DNA of 64,000 nt from Asparagopsis taxiformis. Its lineage: Eukaryota; Rhodophyta; Florideophyceae; Bonnemaisoniales; Bonnemaisoniaceae. This document shows positions 25,046 through 46,499 of this stretch, piece after piece. Where the stretch lies: positions 124,001 through 188,000 of the forward strand of contig JALQPE010001878.1 in the NCBI GenBank assembly GCA_030407315.1, in the 5' to 3' direction. The notes under the pieces were generated by a model, which worked only from the letters and a program-made list of their open reading frames with translations, did no database searches and had not been told where the DNA came from. The stretch's first letter is position 1, and each line of letters begins with the position of its first letter. The position numbers and the translations under genes are program-made.

Positions 25046-25052
25046 GTCACAG

Positions 25053-26036: not shown

Positions 26037-26609
26037 ATGACTAGGCGTGAATCATTGCGAATTAGGCGACAGAGCGAAAAAGCGAAAGCTGGCCGTGAGC
26101 GTGAGCGAGCAGCGGCCGTAGATGCACTTCCCTGTGTCGGAACGCAAATAGACGTGTGGTTCCAAGTGGGTGATGACGCAATATGGTGGAAGGCTACTGT
26201 TGTGGAAATCAAACTTCCTGAGCAGTATCCTGTTTGCAGTGGTAAGCCGTCAGTGGGAGACCGCATCGATGTAGACAGAGGAGATGGCGTGTACACGCCT
26301 GGTGTGGTGGAGCACAATAGACAGGATGTGAGTGATGCAATTGTGAGGTTGACGACAGAGGAAAAGGATATTGCAGTGATGGAAGTATCGAAGTGGCGGT
26401 ACTCGGATGCTGTGAAGCCAAGGCACGATGAAATGGTGGTTGCGGAAGGCAGATTGTTATATGATGCTATCTCTGAAAGGAATTACCCTTGTGTTTCCTA
26501 CGAACATGTAAAATTTCTGATGGGAAGTAAGTTAATGTCCGGGGTCAGCCACCGACACAGTGGCGAAGGAGCAACAGAGAGGTTGTGGACTACGAAGCGG
26601 TGGGAGTAG
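26037..26609 (+). CDS. Tudor/agenet-like protein of cassette A, first part
   Basis: ATG at 26037 opens a frame of about 190 codons. The basic, Glu/Arg-rich start (residues 1-30) is followed by VWFQVGDDAIWWKATVVEI (about 38-58), a Tudor/agenet-type signature (charged entry, two aromatics, then A-x-V). A second similar strand pattern follows (GDRIDVDRGDGVYTPGVVEH). Such domains bind methylated lysine or arginine tails. The frame then loses protein character near a GTAAGT at about 26529, so the last residues are probably intronic or frameshifted and the protein may continue in the frame below. The Tudor call rests on motif shape only. Confidence 0.55.
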   Translation: MTRRESLRIRRQSEKAKAGRERERAAAVDALPCVGTQIDVWFQVGDDAIWWKATVVEIKLPEQYPVCSGKPSVGDRIDVDRGDGVYTPGVVEHNRQDVSDAIVRLTTEEKDIAVMEVSKWRYSDAVKPRHDEMVVAEGRLLYDAISERNYPCVSYEHVKFLMGSKLMSGVSHRHSGEGATERLWTTKRWE

Positions 26610-26640
26610 AATTTCATGAACAATCAGATGGAGAATCTGA

Positions 26641-27729
26641 AGGATATCACCGCAGAGGAAGAAGCAAAAAGTGGAATCAGCACTTGACGCCAACACATAC
26701 GGTGGTATGGAGACAAGGCTGAGAACACTAGAAAATATAATGCTTTCTGGAAATGGTAGCGAGTGTCGGCTTGGTTGGAACGGAATGGTTCGAAATTGTG
26801 GATCAACAGTATCAGCTGGTAAGTTTTTATTGATGCTCTTACAGCGTGCGGTAGAGAAAGTTGTGGAACAGGTTAATCGAAGCACTTTGTCAAACTCAGG
26901 TGGCGGCTACCCACATAGTGAGATTGACGGTGCCTGTACAAGTGGAACGGCTATTAGCGGACCGGTGCAGATTCCCATCTCATTGAGCACTGAGTTATTC
27001 CGGGAAATGCTAAAGGGAACAGCAGAAATCTATGGAGGGGGGTATTACAAAGTTTACCTAGGGCTTCACGCGGCAGTGGCTGGAACTGGTGGGGAAGCTT
27101 TGAACATTACGTGTTCCAGTTTTGCAACACTATCAGATCTGCTAGGATTGGGGCACCGATGGCGAACCGAGTGTCTGGTTCACAGGCGTAATATCAGCAA
27201 CTCGGAAGAGGAGGACAATGAAGAGTGTAGTTACATGAACGGTTCGGCGAGGTCATGTGGTTTGCGGTTGTTTGGTACGATATTGTGCTCGGGAATCATG
27301 GAAGCTCAGTCGACATCTGTTGCAATTGGCAGTAGCTCATTCTGCACTGTGGAAACAACATCAAACGTGTGGTGTCTAATTCGAAAAAGTAGTTCTGTGG
27401 TCCAAGGTGAATACGTGCACGGAATGGAGCTGCAGAAATGTCCTTTGACATGTGATTTGCACGGGAGGAGCGACGGTGAAGGGAGTCTGGAAGGGTGGAA
27501 AAGCGAAGGAAACAAATGTTTCCGTATAGAATGGGAGCCTGCGATGCAAAGAAAGAGAGGAAAGGCAGGGGATGTATTGTGGGGATCTCTGAGAGTGCAT
27601 ATGCCGTACGTCGTATTCCGTGGTGTGGAAGAACCTTGTCGTATAGACAAGTTGATAACAGAAGATGTAGTGAACGACGTAGTAGGGTATAGTGCGTCAG
27701 AGAAAAAGGCAGAGAAGTACATTAAATGA
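26641..27729 (+). CDS. Cassette A, second part of the Tudor-like gene or separate gene
   Basis: The open frame runs to a TGA at 27727 with no convincing ATG at its start (the first in-frame ATG is at about 26707), so it is more likely a downstream exon or a frameshifted continuation of 26037-26609 than an independent gene. It contains several aromatic, strand-like segments (GGGYYKVYLGLHAAVAG, IRKSSSVVQGEYVHGMEL, LWGSLRVHMPYVVFRG) and no family I recognise. GTAAGT donors at about 26529 and 26819 could mark introns. It ends 30 bases from the end of the convergent gene at 27759. Confidence 0.45.
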   Translation, partial: RISPQRKKQKVESALDANTYGGMETRLRTLENIMLSGNGSECRLGWNGMVRNCGSTVSAGKFLLMLLQRAVEKVVEQVNRSTLSNSGGGYPHSEIDGACTSGTAISGPVQIPISLSTELFREMLKGTAEIYGGGYYKVYLGLHAAVAGTGGEALNITCSSFATLSDLLGLGHRWRTECLVHRRNISNSEEEDNEECSYMNGSARSCGLRLFGTILCSGIMEAQSTSVAIGSSSFCTVETTSNVWCLIRKSSSVVQGEYVHGMELQKCPLTCDLHGRSDGEGSLEGWKSEGNKCFRIEWEPAMQRKRGKAGDVLWGSLRVHMPYVVFRGVEEPCRIDKLITEDVVNDVVGYSASEKKAEKYIK

Positions 27730-27758
27730 TGCCAGCAGTTGGATGAATGAGAAATACT

Positions 27759-29541
27759 TTAATACAGATGATGCATGCATTGCAAAGCATAACTAGTTGA
27801 GCGTTGGGAACTTTTCCTAGAACTACTAATGAACCATACCGATATAAAGTTTCTAATCAAACTACAATCAATTAGAGAAATACCAAGCTCGTCATCCTCC
27901 TGTAGAGGGACGCAATCAGGATTGGAAATGCGCCTGTCTGCCGAGTTTTCAAAGGAAGGTTCGGTTTGTACGATGCTTGAATCGAAACGTACAGACTCGT
28001 ATTCTTCAGCAGTGAGATTTCTCTTCTTTCGGATGATTCCGAACAGGCAATCACCTCCCATGAGGTAGTCCCGCAGCTCTAGATGTCCCCATGAAACTCG
28101 CAAAGGGAATCCATCTTTCCCGAACTGAGGTGTAGGTAACTTGCTGAGGGCCGCATTGAATAAACCTTGGAGACATATTGCTATCCGATAACAAGCTTGA
28201 ATGGCATGGGGCTCATGACAAAGCATCTCCAGTTGTGTGCATTGGCAGAAACTGCATAACAATATCATAGCTAAAGTAGAAAAGAGAATGAACATACAGC
28301 CAATTTCTCCACTGGATTCTGCGCAGTTGTAATGTTTCCATTAACGATACCGCCGCTTACCTGAACTTTGTAAGTAACCTGAACGTGAAGCTCGGGACGA
28401 CTGAGAATGAAATTTGAGAAGGTAGAATCATTTCTTGAATACACTTCTAGAGCGTCTTCTCCTGTTCCGTAAGCTTTCAACGTTGTCGGAATTGAGTCAA
28501 GTGGACACATGTCCGACGTGGACACATCAGAGTCAAGTGGAACAGCAATAGTTGCCTTCATATCTCGGTGGATGAGGAAGAATGCTTGCTTGACCAATTC
28601 CATTTTCATTTGCTTACGGGAACTGTTGAAGAACTGGGTGAGCTGCCGTAGAGCAGAGGTAATGATCGGAATGGACTGTATATCTGACGGTGACAGGTTG
28701 GGCATAGCGGAAGACGAAGAGGAGGACGTAGATGCACGGCGTGCTTCTCCTTTCGAACCAGACAGTCGCCGACGCTTTGAAGATCCAACCTGCAAACTCG
28801 TGGACTGTTCTATGTTGCGTTCCGCCTCCGTGGGCATCGAAATATCCATGGCATGGAAAAGAGCGCGCTGCGAAATGTGCAGCCAAGATGGTTTATCGAT
28901 GGGCACAATTGTTGCATTGCGTAGTGCATAATCTCTTGAGATAGTATTGCTGTTCAAGTCCTCTTCTTCGCCGGGGTCCAGGATGCCGGCATTCCTGGTG
29001 GCCGAGTCCTTCCATCGTACAATTCTGTCATTCGCCATCGAAATAAATGCTGTTCCGACAATAGAGCGTTTTAAGAATATATGCCGTTTCCCAACCGCCG
29101 TGCCAATTAGAGATTTCTTGGATTGTCTTACCTCTGCATTAGAACTGGAAGTCTGCGAAAACGACAATGCAGCAAGTAGCAATGTTGTGCAGGACTTCTC
29201 TTGCGGGGTTTTTCAGACCTTGCATTCAAGTTCCTGAGCAAACTTGGATCCACTGAAGTTTTGGTAAGCTCTGCAACGGTTCTGAAAGCGACGAATCTAG
29301 ATGTCACATGCCTATTGTTGAACAAAGAGGACACTAGAGTGGTAATTTGACCTGATTTTCTTGATCTCTCCTCGAGAACTACTGAAGGTACAGTGTTTGT
29401 CCCTGCAGCAGCCGAGGTCATGTACCGAATGCAAGCAAGCTCCATTTCAATGGACGAAAGGGAGTCGCGCATATACTGTTCGAGGGATGCAAACTGTTCC
29501 TCAAACTTTGCAAACCTTGACAATGATAATTCATCTCGCAT
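27759..29541 (-). CDS. Unknown protein of cassette A, minus strand, in three frames
   Basis: Protein-like sequence runs leftward from ATG at 29541 in three consecutive frames: 29541-29128, about 29182-28271 and about 28295-27759. The first part is rich in helix-forming residues (FAKFEEQFASLEQYMRDSLS). The second contains a Ser-rich low-complexity tract (STSSSSSS, about 28710-28690) and VVLEERSRKS-like basic stretches. The third has RVSWGHLELRDYLMGGDCLF. Frame changes coincide with donor-like sequences (GTAAGA near 29132, GTATGT near 28300), so introns are possible but I could not make a consistent splice. No known family is recognised. The 5' end is 226 bases from hairpin 1. Confidence 0.4.
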
Positions 29542-29898: not shown

Positions 29899-30438
29899 CA
29901 AACCATGACGGCCAACAATACATGATCTAGTATTTTACCACCGCTTATTCTGCTCAGGGACTGTGAAGGTGCGGCACTGGGAACCTCGGTGAGCTATTCG
30001 GCCGTATACTTTGGTAATACAAGACCGGGAATTTGTACGCAGCAGAGCACATCGGTGCCCCGCTATGTTAACGACAGCAAAGCTAACTTTTTTGCTCTGT
30101 GCATTCCAATATGCGCAGAGTGCAATAAGCAGAGCAAGTGAAACGCCTCCTTACTCTGCAGCACATATGTATAACATTGCGCAATTTTACACACTAGTGC
30201 ACTTGTCAGCATGCTGAACAGCAGTACGACGCCATCATCATGCGCTGGAATGTATCGTAGGACGTCCGCGAAGTTAGTTAAAAGTCTAGACTAGTTTAAC
30301 GATCGATATCCAAAACTAGGAATTCCCAGCAAGATTTATTCGCAAAAGAAGAATCTGATGATTATCGTTCCATAAACTAGTCAGACGTTTCAGTTGGTTA
30401 GTTCTGGAATAAAGCATGAACGATTAGAGCGGTGCTTT
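29899..30438. other. Spacer between hairpins 1 and 2
   Basis: 540 bases with no supported gene or repeat; a short frame at 30011-30217 has no protein character. Confidence 0.5.
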
Positions 30439-30914: not shown

Positions 30915-33650
30915 ATGGCGGAAGTACGACGGCGACATGGGCTCGTCGTAACACGCAGCGAAAATGGACCAACAGAACCGCATGATTTGTACGGAGACGG
31001 AACAATTCTCTGGGTGGATCCGGCGCGCGTTGTTTCAATTCCAGCGATTGAAGGGGCTGCCACTCCTGCCTCTGATATTCCCCGCGGAACGCACCTAAAC
31101 TTCGATGCTCTCTATCTGTACGGTACCATAGCGGAAAACGGGGACGTTACCCTGGTTGGAGGTATGGACGTGTGCGAAGAGGTATTGTCACGCCCCCGAA
31201 CCAAGACTTCAAGGTATTTACTCCGCATGTGCTATGAGTCTATTTCCACGAAACCGCATACGCTTGCCTTGATTCTGTATCACATTCTGGAGAGCGAAAG
31301 GACAATTCCGTTCTACGAAAGTGTGTCAATTGTAGCTTACATGCGGGACTGCTGGCATAATAGAGAGAAGGACGAAGATAACGTTCCACTCGAAGAACGT
31401 TCACTCTCAGCGTTCCGAAGGGCTGTGGGCAGTCTGTACAGATTCAATCTACCATCTCTAGAAGCCATCGTAATCGTTGACAGGTGGTTTTCATATGCGT
31501 ACCACCGCCACACGTTTAACATTGTGCAATCAGTGCGGAACTTCACGAGTACTGGTGATGATGGCAATACAGAGCTTGATACTAGAGTATGGGATCTGTT
31601 TCTTACCAGCTGTGGGATGCAGGATTTGTCGGTATCGTTCTTTATTCCGGTGTACATCAATGAGCGTGATGAACCAAGGGTGTAGAAATTTCAACCATAA
31701 CACACAGGAAAGGACAGCTATTGGACGAGATGCGTACTCCAGGCAAACTCTGGCTTGTCAATTCTTTGTTTCACACGTTCAGGAAAGGGCTACAGATCAT
31801 GGTAACTGGGCAACTCCAAGATATTCCCCGTCTTTCCGGAAAGTTGTATTTCTCATGGGATTGATTCAGATGGATCGAGACTGGAAGTTGCGAGTAGAAA
31901 CGCGCCCACGACAACGGACAAGAACCAGGTCTGCGGCTAGATTGACAGCGCTAATCAAAAGGACAGTCCTTTTACGGCACAGCGTCTGGGATATGGGGTT
32001 CATCAGGTTCTGGCAGCATGGGATGAGTTGGCAAAATCCTTGGGGTCAGGCGGTGCAGAAGAGCTCCTACAACCTTACCTTCTTTACGACCAGAGACTGT
32101 TTACGTACCACGTCCTGGACTCGGAAAATAGGGGCTTTTCACCGCTTCGAGAGCTGAAGACCTTGTTGCATGGCAGAGGAGCTGTTCGAAGAGTGCAACA
32201 CTCGGCAAGCATTTCAAGTGCTGCTGTCCATCGTACGCTGCTGCAAGACGCTCAGATGCGCCTCTGTGCAAAGTCATTCTGGGAACACTTAATGGCAATA
32301 TGTCGCAATGACAAATTGTTCGACCTATCTGTCTCGGCTCCGCAAGATATACCGTTCATACAGAGCTTCCAGCCGTCCCCCGGTTCCCCGGTTTCCGGGA
32401 GGTTCACGACTATTCCGGCACTGGCGATGGTGGAAAGGCAGCTCACAGCGTTCAGCCTCACAGAAGAGCCGCAATCAACGCCCGACCCAAATGAGGAGCT
32501 GTTCAGAGAAATGGAGACGACAGCTTCTCCAGTGCGGGAATCTTCGGTAACCCGACAGTGTCGGAAGCCGTGGCCGCGAACCCGACTAAGCGTAGGCGTC
32601 TAGAGGTCAGTACGATCGGTGCAGCAAGCTCAGGGGCTAACCCGGCTAGCAGCAGCACCGGTCCAAACGAAGCTGATGTGAACTCCATGCGGGTCGAAGA
32701 GGAAGTGTTAATTCCTGCGGAACTGGAGAACATGAAAGGATGTTTCCTACATACATTCAACTGTAGTTTCCGAGACCTTCTGAAAAACTACGACGCCGTT
32801 GACAATCCTGGTAAGCCGCAAATCCGGGAAGGTGCTCAGTTGGTCCTCACTGACCCGCCGTACAATACTAGGCGTATGTCCGGCAGAGGAAACTCTGGTT
32901 ACGATGTCCTCCGTCAGGAAGAAATCGAAGACACGGTAGCTGAAATTTCCAAGGTGACGCGCAAGGGTGGTCATGTTCTCATATTCACATCTGCTGCTCT
33001 GTTCTACAATTGGGTTTACGAGCTCCGCAAAGTGAAGTACTCTGCCGGCTATCCTATGTTTGCCGTTGATTCGCAGCCTATTGTGTGTACTCGGAGTCCG
33101 ACACATTTCACATCCCCCCGTATCGTATCACGACAAGTTTGTTGAATATGGTGAGTTGGTCGTACATGCCACCAAGCTCGGCAAGGGGAGAGAAGGCTGG
33201 GGGATGGTTAATTACCGAAATGCCGGATACATACCTTCTAGATTCAAGGCTTGGACAAATGTCATCGACAACATCCCGCGGATCACTGCGTCGGAGACGG
33301 TGAAATATATGGACAAGGACAAGAAGAAGGTTACGTTGCGCCCCGAGCAGAAGACCGTCGCTCTCATGCAAGAGCTCATTGGGCGTTTCTCAAACCAGGG
33401 CGACCTGGTTGTTGACATGTTTGCTGGAACTTTCTCCACTGCTGTTGCATGCCTGACAATGCACCATGGTCAGTACAGGAGGTTTGTCGGGTGTGAGAAG
33501 TTCAAGGATTGCTACGAACTGTCTCTTCCTAGAGTCAACGTCGCATTTCTCCACCAGGTCTCTATTGGAACTTTGCCCAGCAGTCCACGACTGCCCTACA
33601 GCAGCTGGCTTCTGCTCGTCTGGGAACTTCGGAAGAGAGTTCATCATTGA
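30915..33650 (+). pseudogene. Beta-class DNA amino-methyltransferase of cassette B, several frame changes
   Basis: Protein-like sequence runs through successive frames: 30915-31685, about 31676-31860, about 31950-32600, 32540-33120 and 33115-33650. The catalytic half has LVLTDPPYNTRRMSG (motif IV, DPPY, near 32860) followed downstream by LRPEQKTVALMQELI and GDLVVDMFAGTFSTAVA (motif I, near 33410). The order IV then I, with the (K)PE-x-L helix before motif I, is that of bacterial beta-class N6-adenine/N4-cytosine methyltransferases such as CcrM. The last frame change is at a run of six C (33115-33120). The N-terminal ~500 residues have no known domain; WVDPARVV ... DVTLVGG is faintly ParB-like. 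The copy at 61220-63495 aligns throughout, so this is a real family. As it stands the gene cannot be read without recoding, splicing or repair. Confidence 0.8.
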
Positions 33651-34339
33651 AGACAACCTCAAAAGTGCCCATTTCAACCAAACTTCCGCCCCACCTCATC
33701 AGCTTTCTTACTGGCATCTGGTGCATTCCGGACCAGCACAAGGAGTTGACAGACCAACCCATTGATAAGTGGCCACAATCGCTGCTGGGTTTGTTGTCTA
33801 CCGTGGATATTAAAACCCTGCTGTCAATAGACGCGATGGCACACAATGTATACGTCGCAGCGTCAACGATTCCTTCGGCTGGTGACGGTCTGTTTGCAAG
33901 AGTGGATATTGATCCTGGAGATATCGTAGGGTACTATTTCGGGTCTGTGGTTTACAAGGATTTGTACAAGGCGAAGTTGAAGACTTTCGGTACTGGACCT
34001 ACTTCCTTCTCGATTGAGCGTTTCCAGAAGTACGCTGTTCAAATTAAGGATGCAAATGTGAAATGTCTGATGCCATCCACGTCTGCAAGTCCAATCTTCA
34101 TTGTTCCATTCGAGTATTGTGCGGCATCGAAAATCAACGACCCAACGTTTGTGGACCCAGCGGAGGGAACTGAGCGTCCGTCGCGTTCTGCTAATGTTAG
34201 TTTCTCTTCCCCCATACAAGAAGTTCTTGATGAGACCTCTGTATCAACCTATCAAGTTGTATGCGTCACTGCCAATGTGCCCATTTCAGCTGGCTCAGAG
34301 TTATTCATCGAGTACGGACACGAATACTTTTCCGTATAA
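33647..34339 (+). CDS. SET-domain lysine methyltransferase, probably fused to or following the MTase
   Basis: Open frame with SAGDGLFARVDIDPGDIVGYYFG (SET N-terminal motif), KINDP ... SANVSF (the cofactor-binding N-x-x motif in the NDP variant seen in some SET proteins) and VPISAGSELFIEYGHEYF (the final GEELxxDYG-type motif). These are the three landmarks of a SET domain, so protein-lysine methylation, probably of histones, is the expected activity. The frame has no convincing ATG of its own before DAMAHNVYV (about 33835). It overlaps the end of the MTase reading, so the two were probably one MTase-SET polypeptide, now frameshifted. The same order is seen at the right edge of the window. It ends 145 bases before hairpin 3. 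Confidence 0.85.
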   Translation: MKTTSKVPISTKLPPHLISFLTGIWCIPDQHKELTDQPIDKWPQSLLGLLSTVDIKTLLSIDAMAHNVYVAASTIPSAGDGLFARVDIDPGDIVGYYFGSVVYKDLYKAKLKTFGTGPTSFSIERFQKYAVQIKDANVKCLMPSTSASPIFIVPFEYCAASKINDPTFVDPAEGTERPSRSANVSFSSPIQEVLDETSVSTYQVVCVTANVPISAGSELFIEYGHEYFSV

Positions 34340-34755
34340 CCAGTACCCTGTCTGGAGAAATGTTGAGAAGTAAATGTTTTCCCATCTTCCTTTAAACTCT
34401 GTTCATAGAATTGTAGTTCAAGTACGTGTATGTGAGCCAGGAGGGAAATCCTTGCACAGGTCCCCTAAACGACGTAAAAACGAGCGTAAAATTTGGTAAT
34501 TTTTTGGCTGTGAAATTACTGCAGTAAAAAGCGATCTAGCTTGTGCACTTAGGTAGATCGCTTTTTACTGCAGTAATTTCACAGCCAAAAAATTACCAAA
34601 TTTTACGCACTAGAGCTGACCTGTGGTGCCTTTTCGGCGACTGCTCTAGTCTGCTCTCTACACGAACACGTTGCTTCAATGATGTCATTAAGCAAAATGG
34701 TATGGCTTAGGTTTACTTTCTACAATAAACGGTCTTTGACGCAGCTCGACTGTGT
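34240..34755 (+). repeat. Left member of a rearranged inverted duplication around hairpin 3
   Basis: It comprises the SET 3' end and flank (34240-34483, block M), hairpin 3, and a 145-base block Q (34610-34755). Inverted copies of M and Q occur at about 35095-35330 and 35336-35470, but joined M-to-Q without the intervening hairpin. Confidence 0.8.
34484..34608. repeat. Cassette hairpin 3
   Basis: 125-base perfect or near-perfect inverted repeat (GCGTAAAATTTGGTAATTTT ... AAAATTACCAAATTTTACGC) with locus-specific GGCTGTG matched by CACAGCC, core CTGCAGTAAAAAGCGATCTA and loop TTGTGCACTTAGG. Confidence 0.95.
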
Positions 34756-35054
34756 ATGATGGCTGTACCACACCTTGTGGGTGTCACGATTGTTTGCTCG
34801 CAGGCGCAAGTAGCTCCACTATGGGACAGACCAGAACATGTATTCGTGGTCATGCTTCGTGCATTACCATACGGTGCATTTAGATTAGTTCATGTACATC
34901 CGGGTGAATATAGCGATGGAAAAGTAGAGGAACAACTACATTGCATTGCTCGCTGGCTTCCGTTCCGATGGTTAAGATGCTGAAACAGAGGGTATTGGTC
35001 CGCGGTATGAGGGGAGATGTGCAAGGCAAGTACCACAGCGCCACAAGCTAGACT
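34609..35054. other. Spacer after hairpin 3
   Basis: Block Q (34610-34755) followed by 300 bases with a 75-codon frame at 34756-34983 that matches no family. No gene is called. Confidence 0.4.
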
Positions 35055-35101
35055 GTAAAATTTGGTAATTTCACAGCCAAAAAAATTACCAAATTTTACG
35101 C
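35055..35101. repeat. Internally deleted copy of hairpin 3
   Basis: GTAAAATTTGGTAATT joins directly to TCACAGCCAAAAAAATTACC and AAATTTTAC: both outer stems of hairpin 3 without the CTGCAG core and loop. It looks like a deletion product of hairpin 3. Confidence 0.85.
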
Positions 35102-35482
35102 TCGGATTTTACGTCGTTTAGGAGACCTGTGCAAGGATTTACCTCCTGGCTCGCATACACTTACTTCACTGAATTCTATGAACAGGGTGTAAAGGAAGAT
35201 GGGAAAAATTTACTTCTCAACATTTCTCCTGACAGGGTGCTGGTTACACAGAAAAGTATTTCGTGTCCGTACTCGATGAATTACTCTGAGCCAGCTGAAA
35301 TGGGCACATTGGCAGTGACGCATACAACTTGATAGACACAGTCAAGCTGCGTCAAAGACCGTTTATTGTGTAAACGTAAGCCATTCTGTTTTGCTCAATA
35401 AAATCATCGAAGCAACGGTCGCGTTTAGTGCAGGCTAGAGCAGTCGCCGAAAAGGCGCCACGGGTCAGCTCAAGATGCGCTT
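35102..35482 (-). repeat. Right member of the inverted duplication, containing a decayed SET 3' end
   Basis: Reverse complement of blocks M and Q. The SET C-terminal codons (ISAGSE ... FIEYG) can be read on the minus strand but now contain a stop and indels. Pseudogene fragment only. Confidence 0.8.
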
Positions 35483-35601
35483 AAAATTTGGAATTTTTTT
35501 CGCTCTGAAATTACTGCAGTAAAAAGTGATCTACCTAAGTGCACAAAGCTAGATCACTTTTTACTGCAGTAATTTCAGAGCGAAAAAATTACCAAATTTA
35601 A
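35483..35601. repeat. Cassette hairpin 4
   Basis: ~119-base inverted repeat with locus-specific CGCTCTG / CAGAGCG, the shared core and loop CCTAAGTGCACAAAG. It opens cassette C. Confidence 0.95.
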
Positions 35602-36104: not shown

Positions 36105-37982
36105 ATGCCTCCGCGTACTATCCCTCTGTCGACCACCAGTGCAGCTCGAGAGCTCACCATCCCTGCCATGTCCCGCACTGGCACCTCGCTTTCGAACTAC
36201 CTGTTCAGGGAAACGAAACTTCCGATCGCTGACATTCATGTCACGGAAGAAACATCCCGCGAGGTTGATGTCTCTCATGTTGAAGTGCTGTTCCAGAAGA
36301 TGGTTCTCGAAGGCTTTCAGACCTCTTCTGTGGGCTCCATGACTGTGGTAAATCTACCATTTGGGCCCGATGGAACACGCTACTACATAGCGGACGGTCT
36401 TCATCGTCGTGGAGCTCTGGTGCGGGCGAAGGAGGAACAGGTTGAGCGTCTAGCTTCCGTTGTGGACAACGTTCCTGTCCAGGAAGCCTTGAGGCCGGAT
36501 GGTGCGCCAATGACTATGGAGGATGTCCTTTACCTCAGTCAGCGGTTGAATGAGCTTGTTCACACTGTTTTGCCAACCACCATCCGGGATCGTATACATG
36601 CTATCATTAGCATATACAATTGCAACCTCAAGTACGCTCAACCTGGGGATAGGAATCTGGCCAACATGACGGCTTCGCAGCTGTCTAATTGGTTCTTCCA
36701 ACGTCATGTTTCTGGCATCCTACGGAAGAGTACCGTGACGTCCATCGTCAATGTGGCTATGAATATGCGACGTTCGCCTCGCACGTACGCAGCCTACAAG
36801 ATGGCTTCCGGGAGGAAGGAGAACGAGGTCGGCATCAGCCTTCTGGTCCTAAAAGACACAGCATTCACGAAGGCTGAAGACCGTGCTAGTGAATTGATGG
36901 TCAAATGCCTTCACTACCGGTCTGTGCTGCTGATGCATTCGTTTGGACGTATCCCAGGTCTCCAGCTCCGTACATATCTCAATTACGTTAGAGATTTCTA
37001 CGAGGTCATCCGTGAACTAGCACCCATGGTTGACCTCAGTACGGAGCAATTGGCAGACCTGGAAGACCTTGAACCGGATGGAAAGGAAATGATCCCGACC
37101 TGGAAATCCGTGTTCAAGCGTATGGTTCAGTACGAGGAGGAGCCGGTGCCGAAGAGAACGGAGAACCAAGATCTTCGTATAGAAGATTTCCGTTCGGTCA
37201 TCCAGCATCGTTTCAATGTTGCACCGAAGCAACAGACTCCTCCTCGTACTGAGCCGTTGGACTCTGCTGCGAATACCACTCCCGCCAATGACGTGGTAAT
37301 GGAGGAGGGTGCGAGGGCTTCAACGAGTGCTCCTCCTGCACCTGTCCCTCCGCCAGGATCACCATCGCAAGTGCCTGGCAAGGATCGTTCTCCGACACAG
37401 TTCGGAGAAACTATCATCGAGCCTCTCCCTGTCCCCCTTCCCTCTGAGCCCCTCCCAGAGGATGAAACTGGTCCCTTGGACATTTCTGCTGCTGTTCCAC
37501 CTGAACAAACGCAGCAGAATGCTCCCGGGTCCTCAGGCAATCCCACCACCCCTCCTGCCAATCCCACCACCCCTCCTGCCAATCCTACCACCCCTTCTCC
37601 TCATCCCTCTCCTGCTCAGTCTCCCATGGCTGTCTCAACACCCTCCGCTGCCCGGGTTCCATCTTCTCCCCCCAAGTCTCCTATGGCTGTGTCACCACCC
37701 TCCCCTGCTCCAGTTCCCCCACTCCTATGGGGGAACAGCAGAACCCCGAAACTGCGGAAGTCTCTGAACCGCTGGGGGGTGGTGCGGAGTATCCCGTTTC
37801 GCGTGCCATTCGCATTCCGGCCGACGAAACTACTCCACGCCCCTTCCCTTGCTCTCTTGGACCGCACTGTCGCTTTCCCGGCTCTGCCGCTGTGCACAAA
37901 TGCACAGCGTGCAACTCTAAGCCAGTTCACAATCTGTGCGACTATCCCCGCGTCCACCATCTCATCCCCATCAAGTACCTGA
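36105..37982 (+). CDS. ParB-like domain protein of cassette C (N-terminal part of a broken multidomain gene)
   Basis: ATG at 36105. Residues about 40-125 have the ParB/Srx arrangement: ADIHVTEETSREVDVSHVEV, a middle strand with VGSMTVVNLPF, and the signature TRYYIADGLHRRGALVRAKE (compare ParB G-x-x-R and its following helix). ParB-like domains bind DNA or act as CTP/ATP-dependent enzymes; in mobile elements they often accompany DNA methyltransferases. Residues 130-350 are helical and unassigned. Residues 385-540 are a Pro/Ser/Thr linker with NPTTPPA repeats. The last ~85 codons (after about 37720, a run of five G) are probably out of frame, because a zinc finger is encoded in another frame there. 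The true C-terminus is therefore likely the continuation at 37727-39664. Confidence 0.65.
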   Translation: MPPRTIPLSTTSAARELTIPAMSRTGTSLSNYLFRETKLPIADIHVTEETSREVDVSHVEVLFQKMVLEGFQTSSVGSMTVVNLPFGPDGTRYYIADGLHRRGALVRAKEEQVERLASVVDNVPVQEALRPDGAPMTMEDVLYLSQRLNELVHTVLPTTIRDRIHAIISIYNCNLKYAQPGDRNLANMTASQLSNWFFQRHVSGILRKSTVTSIVNVAMNMRRSPRTYAAYKMASGRKENEVGISLLVLKDTAFTKAEDRASELMVKCLHYRSVLLMHSFGRIPGLQLRTYLNYVRDFYEVIRELAPMVDLSTEQLADLEDLEPDGKEMIPTWKSVFKRMVQYEEEPVPKRTENQDLRIEDFRSVIQHRFNVAPKQQTPPRTEPLDSAANTTPANDVVMEEGARASTSAPPAPVPPPGSPSQVPGKDRSPTQFGETIIEPLPVPLPSEPLPEDETGPLDISAAVPPEQTQQNAPGSSGNPTTPPANPTTPPANPTTPSPHPSPAQSPMAVSTPSAARVPSSPPKSPMAVSPPSPAPVPPLLWGNSRTPKLRKSLNRWGVVRSIPFRVPFAFRPTKLLHAPSLALLDRTVAFPALPLCTNAQRATLSQFTICATIPASTISSPSST

Positions 37983-38641
37983 ATCAAGGTGAGCGAGACA
38001 TGGTCTTCGTCTGCTCCCGTCGGTGCTATGATGGTCGTCAACCCAATGACGCCCCTTCTTGGACCCCTCCTGCAGGGGTCACGTTACAAGAAGCGTGGGA
38101 TGGTGATGAGTTCAATCCTTTTCGCAAAGGAGGCTCAACGACCGAGTCGGTGGAACAGGACAAGGGTGAAGCGGGTGTCAAGGACAAGAGGAGCACCGTA
38201 GGAGAGAAGACTCCCATATCTCTGGGCAAGGTCAAGAAGCCCTCCAAGAGTACCCGACGAGGGGAAAAGAGGAAAAGGGACGATACCTTTAGTCCGCTTC
38301 CGGCCCGTGTTACTCGGTCGAAGACCAGAAGTGCTGCCGTTGCAGAGCAGCTCATCGCTCTTGGCAGCACTTCTTCCCCTCCTTCCTCCCTTCCGCTTCC
38401 TGGTCAACCCCCGTCTTCGGGTGAGAAGGAGCGTGACAATGAAGGTGAGAGTGAGGAGGAGGAAGAAACTCCCACAAAATCGAAGGTGACTTCGAAGGGG
38501 TTTCTGGTCCACCGGTACGAGGACGAACAGCCGAGTCCACCTCCCCACCTCCTCGAGAATACTTCCGTGGCCGAAGCTGAATCGTTCGTCCGTTCAGTTC
38601 GAGCCTACTTCATCCCGAACACCGCTCTGGGTTCTACTTGA
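37727..38641 (+). CDS. Cys/His zinc finger and basic/acidic linker, continuation of cassette C protein
   Basis: This frame (ATG 37727, but more likely a continuation after a one-base frame change in TATGGGGGAAC) encodes a zinc-binding module within about residues 40-100. It reads PCSLGPHC, then HKCTACNSKPVHNLC, then FVCSRRCYDG, giving three Cys/His pairs in a PHD/RING-like spacing. A long charged linker follows with nuclear-localisation-like KR clusters (RRGEKRKRDD) and acidic tracts (EGESEEEEE). It ends with a TGA at 38639 while protein-like sequence continues in the next frame. Role inferred: protein or chromatin binding. Confidence 0.55.
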   Translation: MGEQQNPETAEVSEPLGGGAEYPVSRAIRIPADETTPRPFPCSLGPHCRFPGSAAVHKCTACNSKPVHNLCDYPRVHHLIPIKYLNQGERDMVFVCSRRCYDGRQPNDAPSWTPPAGVTLQEAWDGDEFNPFRKGGSTTESVEQDKGEAGVKDKRSTVGEKTPISLGKVKKPSKSTRRGEKRKRDDTFSPLPARVTRSKTRSAAVAEQLIALGSTSSPPSSLPLPGQPPSSGEKERDNEGESEEEEETPTKSKVTSKGFLVHRYEDEQPSPPPHLLENTSVAEAESFVRSVRAYFIPNTALGST

Positions 38642-39664
38642 CGGAAGGGGAGGTGGAGGAACTGAGGGAGGATATTGACTCCGCGGCTGGTTCTTCGTCC
38701 ATCGAGAGGGCTGTGTATTTCGAGCGGGCAAGGGCTAGTATTGATTCTGATGGATATGTTGTCCTGGAGAACATACTAGGAGCTAAGGAAGTGCGGTCTA
38801 GTATCCACGACCTTCTGGCAGCCTTTGCCAAGAAGTTCTCGGAAACGAGGAAGGTGCGTGGAACTCGATTCTCAATTCCGGTTCTACAGTAAGGATGCAG
38901 AAGGGGGGCCGTCTCGGCAGCGGTACATGACCCCCTGCAAGGCCGTTGTCGAAGACCTGGACACGCTTGCGTCTGGTCCAATAGCTCACGATAAGGTTTC
39001 TGTGGATGTTCTGCTCGCTATTATAGCAGAAAAGCTCCACTTAGAAGATTCCGTTTCGTCATTGAAGGGATTCAAGGAAGGCTCCAAGCTCAGGTTTGGC
39101 AGAACAGGTCTTCGGATGCTGCTCACAGGGTCGGGCTGTGATCGTCAGATACTTCATCTGGACTTCACATACCCCGGTCCACCGCCAGGGGAACCCAACC
39201 GATACTACGGTAAACCTGCACCAGATCCTGACTATGCATTCATTGCAACTGGTGCAGTGGGTTCCCCGATTCTAGTACGACCTCGCAGCCATACCTTCCT
39301 CAACTCCCCACGTAAGGCCTTCCTGGACGTCTGGCCCCACCTCGTTCCCAAGTTGGTCTGGATACCTCCGTTCTCTGTTTTTGTCTCTCGTGGAGACTTG
39401 GAACATGCAGGTCCAGGATGGCAGGACCACGATTTCGTGAAGACCAGGCTTTCCAACACTGGAATGCCGTATGGTCACCATATTCGACTCCACACAATGG
39501 CTGCGCGTGTCTCCTCTCAGCTCGTCAACGACCTAGTTTATGCGCCAGGGCTGGGTGACGACCCCAATGCTCTGCCGGAGCCCTACGATTTCGATCACGA
39601 CTACGTGTCGGATAGTGATAAGGAAGAGGAAAGTAGTAGCGAAGAGTATATTACAGTTGAATAG
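38638..39664 (+). CDS. HxD...H dioxygenase-like domain, end of cassette C protein
   Basis: Two frames (38638-38892, then about 38860-39664) carry one domain. It starts DSDGYVVLENILG, similar to the N-terminus of phytanoyl-CoA/2-oxoglutarate oxygenases. It contains RQILHLDFTYPGPPP with an H-x-D pair (39155-39163), a later GDLEHAGPG with a distal His (39404-39406) and a following basic stretch with Arg (HHIRLHTMA). HxD...H...R is the Fe(II)/2-oxoglutarate binding layout shared by TET/JBP, AlkB and PHYH-type enzymes. Substrate is unknown. In a DNA-methyltransferase-bearing element, oxidation or removal of methyl marks is an attractive inference. Acidic C-terminus (DSDKEEESSSEEY). Interrupted by a frame change near 38860. 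Confidence 0.6.
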
Positions 39665-39888: not shown

Positions 39889-40008
39889 AAAATTTGGTAA
39901 TTTTTTTCGCTCCGAAATTACTGCAGTAAAAAGCGATCTAGCAAAGTGCACCAACCTAGATCACTTTTTACTGCAGTAATTTCGGAGCGAAAAAAATTAC
40001 CAAATTTT
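39889..40008. repeat. Cassette hairpin 5
   Basis: ~120-base inverted repeat with locus-specific CGCTCCG / CGGAGCG, the shared core and loop GCAAAGTGCACCAAC. It closes cassette C 225 bases after the stop. Confidence 0.95.
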
Positions 40009-40579
40009 TACATCTCCCGTTCCATGGATACCGCGTTTACAGAGGTGCTCAAACCAGGGAACCTGGCCACGTAAGCACGGTTGAGCTATCACTGTTTCAA
40101 CAAAGTTAGTCATGTTGCAACACTTCACAGAGCACAACATTATTTTGAAATCACTAGTTTGTACAACATTCCCATAGGTACACGACACATTCCGAATTCT
40201 GACTAGGCATAGCAGCCACTAAACATACGTGTAAGACTTTTGAATTCCTGCTGCGGCTGGAATGCAATATGCACTATCCAAGTCTTTCCAAATAGGGGCT
40301 ATCCCATACGTAGGGTACATGAAGTGAAGCTTTAAAGAAGTTTGGTCTATTTTACCTGGTAGTTTGTCTCGTCGACTTCACTTCCTAGATCATCTATATA
40401 TAGACATGTAGTATACCGCGGAATGGGTCCTATGACAATAATACTCTAATGACCTATTGCGATTACCCTGTACGTACCTTTCCCTCTCGATATAACACAT
40501 TAGAGTCGTAAGCGCCGCATATGGGGCTAATTCCGGTGCAGATCGTTGGAAAAGCCCAAGTTTGGCGCCCGGAAGCTCA
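40009..40579. other. Spacer between hairpins 5 and 6
   Basis: 570 bases with no supported gene. Its first bases (ACATCTCCCGTTCCATG) recur directly after hairpin 6, so the two hairpins share a flank. Confidence 0.5.
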
Positions 40580-40717
40580 GGGAGATGTTTAAATTTGTAA
40601 TTTTTTTCACTCCGAAATTACTGCAGTAAAAAGTGATCTAGCAAAGTGCACCAACCTAGATCACTTTTTACTGCAGTAATTTCGGAGCGAAAAAAATTAT
40701 CAAATTTCAACATCTCC
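40580..40717. repeat. Cassette hairpin 6
   Basis: ~138-base inverted repeat (GGGAGATGTT ... AACATCTCCC outer arms) with CACTCCG / CGGAGCG and the same loop as hairpin 5. It opens cassette D. Confidence 0.95.
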
Positions 40718-40932
40718 CGTTCCATGAATGATTGCTGTTTATGGGTAGTATAGTCGTATGTGCAACTGAGCAAGGTCATAGTTAAACTATTAGACTGTAA
40801 CGGTCGACTTATTCATGTTCTCCCTTTCTACAGCTTTACATCTTGTGTTTCGTTTCTATGCTCACTACAGCAAGGCCTACACGCGGTCCCTCACACAAAT
40901 ATCAGAGCCTGCAAATTGTCTGTCATCGAGAC

Positions 40933-43900
40933 ATGGCAAGACCGAGAAAGTCTAGGACTGGCCTACGACTACGATACAACAATGTATACCCTGGTCGTAA
41001 TCGGGCTCGGCGTTCGACTACCAGAACAGTTTCTGACCCTTTCTCCGTCCATCACATGGGCTGGAGACCAATGCAAAACCCTCTTCCTCCCCCACAAATA
41101 GACCATGACAGCACTTTGAACATTCCCCAGAATCCAAATGCTATCAACCACCGGCTCCCAGATGCAACACCCCCTTCCTCCCCTGTCCTGGATACGTCTA
41201 CAACTGGGAACAATAGCTTGCATGCTATTGCTCTGGTACCCATGGATACCACTGTCTCTCTGGAGTACGCCAAAAGCGAAGAGGGAAACACCCTGCCACT
41301 TCCAGCAGTTGAAAACCTATCCACCATTCCCGACGATTGTGATATGATACTTCCTTCTAGGACTGAACCTGCTTCTGCTGTTGCGACAGTTCCTACTGAA
41401 TTCCATCACGATAGTTCTGACGAACCCGATGATGTATTCTCAGAACATGATACCGTGTCGAATGATAAAGACCTGCTACTACAGGAGGAGATAGAGGCTA
41501 AACTTCTCATCTCTTCTCCTTTCATCTTCAATACGTCCAATCCAGACAAAGCTCGCAATTACATGACACAATGGACTACGCTGTATACTGTCGCAAAGCT
41601 GACAGGCTCCACCAAAAGTACTGCCGCTAGCTTGCAGGAAGATCGTGTTTTGTTCGATTTCGCGAGAAAAGGCTCAACGAATAAACATGTTCAGCAAGGT
41701 CTGCCTCATTATTCGACAATAGTGCGTAAGGTGAGACCGTGGCTATTCTACAATGCATGGTTGCGTTCAGAAACCGTTTATTTTCCTGTAAACGTAGAGC
41801 GCAGTGCAGCCCGTGTAGCTTCCTCCGCAATTCTACGAAGAAGCCGCGTCGAACGAGCAACAACAGGCCAATCAGCACCTGTACTTATCGTTCCACCAAG
41901 CGAATATGCACGAGCAGACATTACTACGCCACAAATATTCGACCTTGCGTGGCGTGATAACACACAATTGGATGCTTCCGACTCGGATGAGTTACTAAGT
42001 TTACATGGTAATGTGTGTACATCCAGGATAGGAAAATTCAGAGAGTACTCTCTGAAAGGACAAAACTATACTCTGAGGGCGGAGGATAAGGATGGCTCTC
42101 CGGTTCCTGCTTTCGGGGGTAGTATTGTGGAGCTTCGCGTGATATCAGGGCGGCACGCCTCTCCTCTAGATCCTACTCTCAGTTCCCTTTTCCAACAGGA
42201 ATCACTATCTTCCAGCCATGAGTCGTTCAAAGCTTTCACATCTTCTTCGTGGATTAACTCTGGTGCCGCATTTCATAGTAGGCTTTCGGTCTCCCCGCAT
42301 TCATATGGGTCCGCCTTCATCCTTCAGAAAGAGTCGTTCCGGGAATATGCTCGGCCGGGTGATCACCTGACAGTTTTATCACCCAGTCCTGAGTGCAACC
42401 CTACTCAAAATTGGGTACAGTTCTTCATTGGGCTTGTCGTCAGCTCTCCCGGACCGCCAGGCCCATCACAAAAACTGCTCTTTCTCGTCAACTCTGAAGG
42501 GCATTACAAAGTTGTCGGCGGAACTCGTGCAATCAACAATGTCAAGTTATTGAAACCAGGCACGAGCTCCAGCCCCTTTCATCCTACACATCTCCGTGGG
42601 GTTCTCAGCTGCGGTACCACATACTACGTCTATCCATTTCTTTTATACTGCGATGACTTCAATGAAGCCTCTGGTAAGAAAGGGAGTGCTGGAGGATGCT
42701 ATATGCTCCCAATGGGTCTTCCGCTGGACTGTCGCCGGAACAGTTCTGCTGTGCGCGTTATCGGTGTCACAGGTCCTGGTGTTAGTACAAACCATATCCT
42801 TCGACATATCTCTAGAGACATTATTCAAGGATGTACGTCGGGGTTTCGTGATGTCGATCCAGACGGCAATGAATGTCTAATTTTCCTGGACTTTATTGGT
42901 TTCGTATCGGATTATCCTGCCTGTTCTCATGTGCTGGATGTCATGGGGCACAACGCAGACTGCCCATGCCATTTGTGTTTCTTTGTAAGAGGGGGGAAAT
43001 ATGGGAAGAACTCGCAGTTTGGCTACGACACCCGTTTACATTCGAGCTCTGATACACACTTTCGCACATCCGAGCGAACAGCTGCTGTTCAGTCATCGGA
43101 AAGTTCTGCAAACATCTTGAAGTATCTGGGTTTGAGAACAGTGCAAAATATCACAGACACTCCATTGCATCTCATTGAAAGACTACTTCATGAAGCTAGG
43201 TCCAAAGGGCTGGTTCCAACCGGGACACCACTCGGAAACGATGGTCTACGAATCCCTGTCGTGCCTGCTATTCTGGACCCATACCGTTCGACGTTTGTTG
43301 GAATTGACCATCTCCTCCACGGACTGGCAAAGGATGCTCTGGACAATGCTTTTTCAAGCTTGCCTAATGATGGTGTGAGAAGGCTGGCCGACAGGTTCAT
43401 GGTGGATGCCCTCCGTGTATTGGGTCTCGCAAATCAGAACAAGATATATAACTTCAACGCAGGTGAAACTCATACAATGGGAATCTCAGACAGATTTGCA
43501 GTTCTCCTCGTCGCCGAACACTGCTTCAGGTCTTCTCTGAAATTCCAATCGCAGACTACAAGGTCATCCGAAGGTAGCGGTTCAAGGTCACTCCAGGCTT
43601 CTGAAGAGCAACGCCATCTGTCTCTCGAACTTGTTCGTCTCCTGTCCTCTATATCTGCAGCTACATACTTCCTACCACGAAAAAATATCGACGGTTCTGA
43701 GGCAGTACAGAGAGCTACAGAGAATTCTGCGCACAACAGTCTCCGTCGTCTGCAGCAGCTATCGAAAGAATATGCTACTCTAGTGGATGACCTGCTCAAG
43801 ACTGTTCCTACCAGACAGCGGAGCACAGCGGTCTCGAAGAAACGGAAGATGCAGACAGAAGGTATAGTAACGAATGATAATGACCACATTGAGATGGAAA

Positions 43901-44973
43901 ACAAGACTGCTGGATTCCGGGCAAGGAAGATTCTTGACAATAAGCCAAACTTGCACCGTCTCATTGAGGCATTTGAACACACTGTTCCTCTGCTCGGACA
44001 CGCTCGCCAGGTAGCTGAGCTATCATTCGAAGCAACACATCAACAAATGAAACGAGGTCTAGAGCATTCCGGAGGTGCTGACAGACAGTTGGATGCTATG
44101 TTAGCGGCACTCGGAAACTATTGGAAAGGAAGCCTCCATCTTGCTTTGAAAAGTTTCTCCAATTCTACTCCAGCATCTGTGGAGAGACAACGTTCTAAAC
44201 GGTTTCTCCTTCGTGTTCTATTCGGACGGGAGCACTGTAAATCAATGGAGAACCTCCCGGCTAGTACGCTGCATGACCTCTGTCAAGAACCCCTTCTCGA
44301 ACATTTCAATAGGTCTTCTTTACCATTCTTCTCTTCTCCATATTCATATTACTCGTGGACAGGAGTTCCCTCTTCATTACCACAGCAGGATTTTTCCTGT
44401 GGGCAGAATTCGGATGCAGTCATGCTTCGTGGAAAACCTTGCAAGGGAGCACGTCTCAGTTCTGCCCACCCTGCCTGTGCAGCTTCGCCCTCTGCTGCGT
44501 CTCGGGACTTTTCAAAGCCACAAGAAATAGCTTCTGGCTGTGTAGTACAAGCTTGCTACTCAGCTTCCCCGTCTTCTAGAATTCTACAGAAGACCTGTTC
44601 GCCTTCTTTTTGGGCTGTTACCACCGTGTTTGACCTGACTATTGATGGAAACATTGCTTCACCTGGAAACGTTTGCATAGACGAATCTCACCAGGAAAAC
44701 CTGTCTCCACCACACGCTATTGTTCTTCCAGTTATCAAGCAGAAGTCCTCCCCCACTACGTTTGCTCCGAACACCGATTCCGGCTCCTGGTTTCTCCCTC
44801 TCACTTCAGGGGTTCGTAAGGTTGGTCTCCTCCACAATTGTAGCCCTTCATTATGTTCTGTGGAGCAAGGCACTTCGAATGGAGGAATTACGCATGGAGT
44901 TCCTTCGTTTATGGATGGTGGTTCCTTCTCTATCTTTGCAAGAGAAGATGGATATCCGCCAAGGACTGCATGA
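40933..44973 (+). CDS. DDE transposase, CACTA/Plavaka/KDZ-like, intact
   Basis: A continuous frame of 1346 codons from ATG 40933. This start is preferred over 40858 because the next residues (MARPRKSRTGLRLRYNN) match the basic start of the element I paralogue. Landmarks: YPFLLYCDDF with candidate first catalytic Asp at 574/575; GGCYMLPMGL and GPGVSTN; CLIFLDFIGFVSDYP (Asp near 653/660) leading into a knuckle CPCHLC (677-682); a helical middle with STFVGIDHLLHGLAKDAL; and ELSFEATHQQMKRGLEH (Glu 1029/1033) as the likely catalytic Glu region. The order Y/D block, DYP plus Cys cluster, LH-x-L/G helix and E-x-x-H-x-x-x-K is that of Plavaka/KDZ-type transposases. Nuclear DNA-cutting activity is expected. 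It lies alone in cassette D between hairpins 6 and 7. Residues are inferred without a structural alignment. Confidence 0.65.
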   Translation: MARPRKSRTGLRLRYNNVYPGRNRARRSTTRTVSDPFSVHHMGWRPMQNPLPPPQIDHDSTLNIPQNPNAINHRLPDATPPSSPVLDTSTTGNNSLHAIALVPMDTTVSLEYAKSEEGNTLPLPAVENLSTIPDDCDMILPSRTEPASAVATVPTEFHHDSSDEPDDVFSEHDTVSNDKDLLLQEEIEAKLLISSPFIFNTSNPDKARNYMTQWTTLYTVAKLTGSTKSTAASLQEDRVLFDFARKGSTNKHVQQGLPHYSTIVRKVRPWLFYNAWLRSETVYFPVNVERSAARVASSAILRRSRVERATTGQSAPVLIVPPSEYARADITTPQIFDLAWRDNTQLDASDSDELLSLHGNVCTSRIGKFREYSLKGQNYTLRAEDKDGSPVPAFGGSIVELRVISGRHASPLDPTLSSLFQQESLSSSHESFKAFTSSSWINSGAAFHSRLSVSPHSYGSAFILQKESFREYARPGDHLTVLSPSPECNPTQNWVQFFIGLVVSSPGPPGPSQKLLFLVNSEGHYKVVGGTRAINNVKLLKPGTSSSPFHPTHLRGVLSCGTTYYVYPFLLYCDDFNEASGKKGSAGGCYMLPMGLPLDCRRNSSAVRVIGVTGPGVSTNHILRHISRDIIQGCTSGFRDVDPDGNECLIFLDFIGFVSDYPACSHVLDVMGHNADCPCHLCFFVRGGKYGKNSQFGYDTRLHSSSDTHFRTSERTAAVQSSESSANILKYLGLRTVQNITDTPLHLIERLLHEARSKGLVPTGTPLGNDGLRIPVVPAILDPYRSTFVGIDHLLHGLAKDALDNAFSSLPNDGVRRLADRFMVDALRVLGLANQNKIYNFNAGETHTMGISDRFAVLLVAEHCFRSSLKFQSQTTRSSEGSGSRSLQASEEQRHLSLELVRLLSSISAATYFLPRKNIDGSEAVQRATENSAHNSLRRLQQLSKEYATLVDDLLKTVPTRQRSTAVSKKRKMQTEGIVTNDNDHIEMENKTAGFRARKILDNKPNLHRLIEAFEHTVPLLGHARQVAELSFEATHQQMKRGLEHSGGADRQLDAMLAALGNYWKGSLHLALKSFSNSTPASVERQRSKRFLLRVLFGREHCKSMENLPASTLHDLCQEPLLEHFNRSSLPFFSSPYSYYSWTGVPSSLPQQDFSCGQNSDAVMLRGKPCKGARLSSAHPACAASPSAASRDFSKPQEIASGCVVQACYSASPSSRILQKTCSPSFWAVTTVFDLTIDGNIASPGNVCIDESHQENLSPPHAIVLPVIKQKSSPTTFAPNTDSGSWFLPLTSGVRKVGLLHNCSPSLCSVEQGTSNGGITHGVPSFMDGGSFSIFAREDGYPPRTA

Positions 44974-45251
44974 TACTCTAGGGTCTAGTACATAAGCTTC
45001 TCTACCATATTACTTCCCGTAAACAAACTTCCTCATATTGTAGTGTTTCCGTCACATACATCCACCTTGACATTGGCCATACTTAAGTCCCTTGTCCCAA
45101 AACCTGTGAGACACTATGTTCTATTCTATGTAACCATCTCTAATTCCTCGTCTATACCATTCATGCTTCTTCCAGAGCTTCTCCATTCCTTGAACTGCCT
45201 CAAGCCTGAACCAGCTTCCTCAGGGCGGAACGTACCACAATAAAATTAAAG

Positions 45252-45352
45252 TAAAATTAGGTTTCTTTTACTGCAGTAAAAACTGATCTACCAAATGCAT
45301 CTTCCTAGATCACTTTTTACTGCAGTAACTAGTCATTTTTTTTCTAATTTTT
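45252..45352. repeat. Cassette hairpin 7 (diverged)
   Basis: AAAATTAGGTTTCTTTTACT ... CTAATTTT outer arms with the core CTGCAGTAAAAACTGATCTA and loop CCAAATGCATCTTC. Shorter and less perfect than the other six. It closes cassette D 279 bases after the transposase stop. Confidence 0.85.
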
Positions 45353-46495: not shown

Positions 46496-46499
46496 CCAC

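Follow-up and report, generated by a model that had tools for sequence, protein, structure and literature searches.

A giant CACTA-like transposon of Asparagopsis taxiformis with gene cassettes bordered by large palindromes, the probable hinges of cassette rearrangement

Can the genes inside a large DNA transposon be turned or lost one at a time, and if so, at which joints? The question is raised by a 64,000-nucleotide stretch of the red alga Asparagopsis taxiformis (contig JALQPE010001878.1, positions 124,001 to 188,000; hereafter the window), in which a sequence-only reading had pointed to large related hairpins around individual gene units and proposed, among other possibilities, a modular giant transposon. 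We followed this proposal through the 141.5-Mb assembly. Across many copies of a transposon the palindromes mark the same borders, and the architecture of the element changes at or near them. The explanation we favor, and consider probable, is a giant CACTA-like transposon built of self-contained cassettes, with the palindromes between them acting as recombination hinges.

Alignment of the flanks of copies placed the element at 25048–47417, longer than the 26037–45352 originally proposed. Its parts are as follows, with the strand given where one is assigned; H denotes a hairpin, TIR a terminal inverted repeat, ORF an open reading frame, and aa amino acids, and copies elsewhere are identified by contig (C).

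25048–47417, plus strand: giant transposon of the type we call M, 22,370 bp, with start and end shared by copies elsewhere
25048–25061, plus strand: left TIR CACAGGATAAGCAA, 14 bp, from flank alignment of copies
26037–27729, plus strand: cassette A, gene A1; two broken frames in the window, a 564-aa ORF in the C86 and C274 copies
27759–29541, minus strand: cassette A, gene A2, convergent with A1; broken in the window, 556–560 aa in C86, C98, and C274; right limit approximate, set by analogy with C98
29767–29898: H1, border of A and spacer, from inverted repeat and folding; 59 genome-wide H1 matches (at most three mismatches)
29899–30435: spacer AB, with no ORF of at least 150 aa and no alignment with the spacer of the second type, X, on C388
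30436–30557: H2, border of spacer and B, from inverted repeat and folding
30915–34339, plus strand: cassette B, DNA methylase (N6_N4_Mtase) fused to SET, Pfam PF01555 and PF00856; frames broken in the window
34484–34608: H3, border of B and spacer, from inverted repeat and folding
34609–35477: spacer BC, holding an inverted copy of the B 3′ end (~35107–35335) and a centre-deleted hairpin (~35053–35102)
35478–35606: H4, border of spacer and C, from inverted repeat and folding
36105–39664, plus strand: cassette C gene; 1179–1187 aa in C2263 and C98, broken in the window
39889–40010: H5, border of C and spacer, from inverted repeat and folding
40011–40585: spacer CD, absent from the C24, C75, and C86 copies
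40586–40712: H6, border of spacer and D, from inverted repeat and folding
40843–44973, plus strand: cassette D, presumed transposase, a single 1376-aa ORF
~45245–45346: H7, border of D and tail, degenerate, from core matches and folding
45347–47403: right tail, with 45-bp tandem repeats (46500–46658) and a 40-bp near-perfect palindrome (45416–45455)
47404–47417, minus strand: right TIR, reverse complement TTGCTTATCCTGTG, from flank alignment of copies

The ends of the element recur throughout the genome: allowing two mismatches, the left-end pattern matched 168 sites and the right-end pattern 195, 100 of each being listed. Seventeen two-ended copies of all types were found, 21.5–52.5 kb in size, the long ones carrying inserts or left unresolved, and segments A, B, C, and D are shared between the window and other loci, mostly at ~95–99.7% identity. 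We checked 12 two-ended copies of all types for target-site duplication (TSD), namely the window copy and 11 found by the end patterns, whose TIRs match by construction. An exact 2-bp duplication flanks seven of them (P = 2e-6 for at least seven of 12 matches at a chance of 1/16 each). It is lacking in the window copy and in C1847, C2026, C384, and C98, the last two of which share flanks and may be one locus. The window element begins with CAC and ends with GTG (CACAGG..CCTGTG), as CACTA/EnSpm (CMCT) elements do, and the exact 2-bp duplication in seven of 12 copies falls within the 2–3-bp TSD of that group. Our best reading is a giant CACTA-like DNA transposon, a kind already known from red algae, with a hairpin layout that is new. 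Neither the captain tyrosine recombinase of Starships (Pfam, NCBIfam) nor the PolB, retroviral-type integrase, or capsid genes of Polintons/Mavericks (Pfam) have a family match in A1 to D. A third subfamily, with CACAGC ends and 79% identity in A, sits inside cassette C of one type M copy (C77:14582, L027).

All seven inverted repeats first noticed are present, the sixth beginning at 40586 rather than 40580 and the seventh degenerate. H1 to H6 form long near-perfect stems with folding z-scores of −14.3 to −21.4, against −5.9 for H7, and the hairpin core GAAATTACTGCAGTAAAAAG matches the window 13 times (at most three mismatches) where shuffles predict 0.00. The pairing of hairpins around spacers of 0.54–0.87 kb also held up, with gaps of 549, 870, and 584 nt. 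That each gene unit lies between hairpins of its own is true of B and C; the left border of A is the transposon end at 25048, and the right hairpin of D is the degenerate one. In one copy the H7 region is tandem-duplicated (L016 ~9370–9480, right end on C75), and the 40-bp palindrome at 45416–45455, to the right of H7, is unrelated to the hairpin family.

Searching the source genome with the core, as had been proposed, returned 640 exact matches (315 forward and 325 reverse; control 0), and the hairpins inspected stand at borders. By a rough estimate, 59 H1 copies with up to 12 exact arms each would account for the 640. Across 20 fetched loci and the window, 60 of 60 full hairpins lie at the borders of cassettes or of spacers, one of them with only its right flank assignable. 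This census counts hairpins with both arms within four mismatches of the core, which leaves out stumps, H2 of C56, and H7 both in the window and in most copies; its loci were picked from clusters among the 100 listed of the 640 core matches, and solitary hairpins are under-sampled. By our own tally, 94 of those 100 fall in inspected loci or at H1/H2 spacing, and six, on C66, C94, and C207, fall outside the inspected loci. These numbers bear on the idea that a miniature inverted-repeat transposable element (MITE) or foldback family inserted repeatedly into the transposon. The 120–130-bp terminal-inverted-repeat shape would suit such a family, as would the six uninspected matches, but the placement of all 60 inspected hairpins at borders and of the 94 listed matches makes it extremely improbable, and we disfavor it. 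The random scatter that would have spoken against cassette borders was not seen in these clustered loci, with 540 of the 640 core matches lying beyond those listed.

In type M, the cassettes are collinear, A-B-C-D, wherever they are visible. For 37 of the 59 H1 matches, the listed exact left ends include one 4,739–4,820 bp upstream on the same strand, and 36 have an exact same-strand H4 downstream, 34 of these at 5,462–5,897 bp and the other two at 12.3 and 36 kb; the 23 H1 that lack a same-strand H4 have none on the opposite strand of their contig either. Shuffling of cassettes within type M is ruled out by this uniform spacing and strand, apart from the two outliers. For orientation and collinearity we used 86 exact left ends and the 100 listed right ends (for C in type X, the listed ends on the contigs concerned), and each DNA search scored 40 of 241–299 candidates. 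Cassette B lies on the element strand in all 34 assignable type M copies; the remaining six of the 40 scored could not be assigned and were dropped.

A sister type, X, has B and C turned around. B runs against the element strand in all 23 copies that could be assigned, and C in all 25 (17 and 15 of the 40 scored in each case were unassignable and dropped, and three short extra pieces among 43 C matches were set aside). C adjoins B on the side away from A in all 26 pairs, which rules out a single inversion of a B-C block: with A-B-C still in sequence, two flips of one cassette each are required. Over 1.5 kb, the left ends on C134, C215 (two copies), and C228 share 88.9–89.0% identity with the window, and the C134 copy and both C215 copies are type X by their B. 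In the C388 copy, A is followed where expected by a hairpin, then by a spacer with no alignment to that of type M, a second hairpin, and a reversed B that matches the window at 81.9% over 2,547 bp and at 75.7% over another 765 bp. The C2263 copy, 22,061 bp long with a 2-bp TSD, carries C reversed as well (74.9% over 3,619 bp), between two centre-deleted hairpins, beyond which come one full hairpin and another stump. The alignment, at three of four borders, stops 132–178 bp before the type M hairpins and 150–215 bp before the type X hairpins or stumps. Matching the type X hairpins to their type M counterparts arm by arm gave no clear answer, the X arms being mostly alike and the M arms alike. 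Upstream of D in type X lies a 64-bp near-perfect palindrome of other sequence (L068:5486–5549). The contig of the window (C1754) also bears a type X copy, with its left end at 28498 and with B as well as C turned around; a further right end stands at 29304, 0.8 kb from that left end.

TIRs, a 2-bp TSD in seven of 12 copies, many dispersed copies, and two cassettes inverted in place in the sister type, with breakpoint zones near hairpins, together support the modular giant transposon. Of the altered loci that had been anticipated, inverted cassettes exist, with three of four breakpoint zones 0.13–0.22 kb from hairpins or stumps; no reordering was seen.

A second kind of change affects the spacers. 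A single hairpin and no spacer stand at three of 10 C–D borders (C24, C75, and C86) and at one of 11 B–C borders (C24). Read by eye, the three single C/D hairpins resemble H5 in their left half and H6 in their right half, and the lone B/C hairpin likewise resembles H3 on its left and H4 on its right. Joining the left half of one hairpin to the right half of the next, with loss of the spacer, is what an exchange between direct copies would be expected to yield. A role as recombination sites, one of several suggested at the outset, is thus supported as behavior (chimeric single hairpins, spacer gone). The middle hairpin of spacer BC is intact in seven other copies; the window version is without its centre.

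That the hairpins are borders and places of rearrangement is well supported. In the model we propose, each cassette would comprise a gene together with the 5′ and 3′ flanks that belong to it, with large palindromes as the joints. A direct-type exchange between two neighboring palindromes would remove the spacer and leave one chimeric palindrome, and an inverted-type exchange between the palindromes flanking a gene would flip that gene in place. Such exchanges may depend not on a recombinase coded by the element but on the homologous recombination of the host or on fold-back repair, and a flipped gene may be tolerated because each cassette brings its own promoter side.

The conservation of the hairpins bears on whether they have a role at all. 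In an alignment of 14 hairpins from types M and X, which leaves out stumps and includes one row (Hm_C56) cut by the locus end, 94.9% of cells pair and 11 of 52 pairs show changes on both sides. The covariation score, 0.116, exceeds that of shuffles (0.063 ± 0.007, 0 of 500 as high) and slid versions (at most 0.034), with the caveat that relatedness of the sequences can give scores above such shuffles even where there is no structure. Further pair types, at 21, are not above shuffles (19.5 ± 1.7; 146 of 500). The blocks CTGCAG and GATCTA are invariant on both arms of all 14. A type X hairpin is 87.0% identical to H3 over 131 bp, B and C being 82% and 75% identical and the A–B spacers unalignable. 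Selection, gene conversion, or fold-back copying can each explain this conservation. The outer extensions of H1 and H6 vary from junction to junction, yet the two sides of each hairpin match, which suggests that fold-back copying has a part.

One could go further and regard the palindromes as by-products, arising and staying near-perfect through template switching in repair, with flips and spacer losses as accidents and no role for the hairpins. Inverted copies of neighboring sequence do reach past the hairpins, as with the B 3′ end in spacer BC and the matching outer extensions, and centre deletion, the expected fate of long palindromes, is seen in the window and in C2263. We nevertheless think it unlikely that this is the whole account: the palindromes are kept at borders although the genes differ by 18–25% between types and the A–B spacers do not align, and the two invariant blocks persist on both arms.

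Several observations weigh against palindromic hinges as the explanation. Not every expected hairpin is whole: H7 is degenerate, the C56 copy has a truncated H2 or none, the middle hairpin of the window is a centre-deleted stump, and both hairpins flanking the reversed C on C2263 are likewise centre-deleted stumps. Nor is every breakpoint close to one, since on C388 no family hairpin was found within 1.26 kb beyond the start of the reversed B, and on C2263 the stump at the 5′ side of B is 0.84 kb away. The forward orientation of D in type X is known from one 142-bp alignment in one copy (C2263). Covariation between arms could reflect fold-back copying instead of selection; a C.A mismatch retained in all seven H5 seen shows that arms are not always corrected. 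Finally, the assignable copies of any one type all share the same orientation, so flips must be rare, and they do not amount to a working switch.

It is plausible that the palindromes are also selected as boundaries of transcription units, working either way round. A stronger form of this idea would put the boundary function first, with the palindromes as bidirectional transcription-end or insulator elements and recombination as incidental. In type M the cassettes B, C, and D each have a palindrome to the left and to the right, ~0.13–0.5 kb from the coding ends, with similar distances in type X at the B 3′ side and on both sides of C, and palindromic blocks such as TTACTGCAGTAA would suit a dimeric DNA-binding protein. 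Boundaries alone would have no need of spacers between paired palindromes, however, A has no left palindrome, and stumps occupy places of full hairpins. We regard this form as a possible alternative, short of an even prospect, and continue to prefer recombination hinges.

At 57–65 kb, in the right part of the window and in L065, lies a separate element with its own palindromes and a second cassette of methyltransferase (MTase) type:

59926–60894: palindrome family 2 array of three repeat units, in the separate element, left of the second MTase cassette
60938–64000, plus strand: second MTase-type cassette, between palindrome-2 arrays, belonging to another element
~64767 and ~65153: two inverted palindrome-2 units, right of the second MTase cassette, in L065

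Palindrome family 2 (TCTCAAAAACATG..CATGTTTTTGAGA) is unrelated to the hairpin family of the 22-kb transposon. The second cassette shares 34–42% aa identity with B in the MTase part, and a copy on C20 adds a SET part at 30%. In this C20 copy, the cassette is 96.1% identical, the start of the neighboring gene (window 59717–60140) lies at the opposite end and in opposite orientation, the far neighbor is mostly array sequence, and the breakpoints fall within palindrome arrays; the arrangement may be a flip or a re-assortment. Two first-look searches for this family gave 1,243 and 1,155 candidates, 40 of which were scored per search. Palindrome family 2 also occurs within 2-kb inverted repeats at 7881–9887 and 12506–14512, which are 99% complementary; the 2.6-kb stretch between them has no match to cassette proteins A–D.

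With this second element in hand, one may ask whether an enzyme, element-coded or recruited, acts on the palindromes in a programmed cassette system resembling an integron or an invertase switch. The gene-plus-hairpin layout, the in-place flips of type X, and a turned MTase-SET-type cassette in an element with another palindrome set would all fit. Against this, no recombinase family was found in A1, A2, B, C, or D (Pfam) or in A1, A2, C, D, or the B homologue P0012 (NCBIfam), and assignable copies show no orientation polymorphism within a type. We judge such a system very unlikely. The broadest extension, a eukaryotic counterpart of the integron in which at least two unrelated giant-transposon lineages with independent palindrome sets use an enzyme to flip or exchange single genes, above all MTase-SET, within and between elements, is likewise a long shot.

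In the window copy, A, B, and C are split over several frames, with longer ORFs in other copies. A1 and A2 match no Pfam family above cut-off. For B, Pfam confirmed both the MTase and the SET assignment made at first sight; 30 homologues were found, seven with both domains precomputed, including P0012 (1157 aa). Most other scored B copies carry ~45–60 extra bp near query position 780 (window ~31690) relative to the window and C2332, possibly an intron or a small insertion. In viral contigs, MTase-SET matched eight loci, at 22–44% identity over parts of the methylase. The cassette C protein has one homologue, P0011, at 55% identity, and no profile match at cut-off; its ParB-like and oxygenase-like motifs are visible by eye only. 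Profiles thus gave no support to the description of A as Tudor-like or of C as a ParB-zinc-oxygenase.

Cassette D encodes a protein with 10 homologues. None of the 11 members of the D alignment matches a Pfam transposase family or has a Plavaka domain, and D has no match in the PDB or, in a search with D, in viral contigs. Two Plavaka transposase ORFs in the window (16592–19096, minus strand; 54298–57336, plus strand) are 99% identical where aligned and belong to large elements with long repeat arrays. In hhalign of D to two Plavaka ORFs, the DYPA/CxxC and DPY/H stretches, plausibly catalytic, align weakly (probability 2.65, E 0.017). A fragment at window 3–500 (minus strand), 35% identical to D over 174 aa, marks another element of the same transposase family. 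Immediately left of the transposon, 22280–25047 is retrotransposon-like, with an SH3_Tf2-1/chromodomain ORF at 22280–23149.

If the palindromes act as we propose, gene orientation inside a large eukaryotic DNA transposon would be changeable gene by gene at dedicated-looking joints, with many natural copies serving as replicates. This would provide a concrete route by which parts of a giant transposon come to be flipped or lost, as well as a testable example of palindromes as boundaries separating neighboring genes. The DNA methylase-SET fusion carried as cargo suggests transposons that manage their own chromatin.

How does this layout compare with known systems? Among the titles and abstract openings brought up by a literature search, whose reach did not extend to the Repbase Reports or to most subscription papers, none described hairpin-bounded gene cassettes in a eukaryotic transposon. 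Integrons, which are bacterial, have attC sites of ~60–140 bp that form hairpins, one per cassette, and are served by a tyrosine integrase. The likeness lies in gene cassettes beside hairpin-forming sites; the window element differs in having hairpins mostly paired around spacers, and no IntI-type integrase was found in it (Pfam, NCBIfam). Galileo transposons of Drosophila reportedly give rise to inversions by ectopic recombination (PMC2775673). These share with our element repeat-mediated inversion, but are chromosomal and occur between element copies, rather than being single-gene flips within one transposon.

Among giant eukaryotic elements, the Plavaka repeats of Amoebidium reach 50 kb, carry intron-poor genes, and have recombinase matches in red algae or dinoflagellates (PMC11244446). 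Like the window element they are giant and multi-gene, and theirs are flanked by Plavaka transposase; many of their genes are tyrosine recombinases, of which none was found in the window element, and the word "hairpin" is absent from that account (PMC11244446). D also lacks a Pfam Plavaka match, unlike Plavaka elements. The enlarged En/Spm (CACTA) families of Chondrus crispus, of 16–20 kb with four to five ORFs (Kojima, Bao and Jurka 2013, cited in PMC6431247), have in common with the window element a CACTA-type class, giant size, and about five ORFs; in that brief description, the only basis for comparison, no internal hairpins or flipped cassettes are mentioned (PMC6431247). Finally, Kojima 2025 (PMC12730594) sets out the end and TSD types of related fungal elements, describes CMCT Plavaka and EnSpm elements with TET/JBP cargo, and mentions SET genes in other transposons; the word "hairpin" is absent from it, and "palindrom" appears a single time. 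As in the window element, these CMCT elements have CAC..GTG ends (EnSpm) or a 2–3-bp TSD (Plavaka) and carry cargo genes for epigenetic marks; the window element is set apart from these relatives by CACAGG..CCTGTG ends, rather than TGT..ACA or CATCA..TGATG, and by its MTase-SET cargo (PMC12730594).

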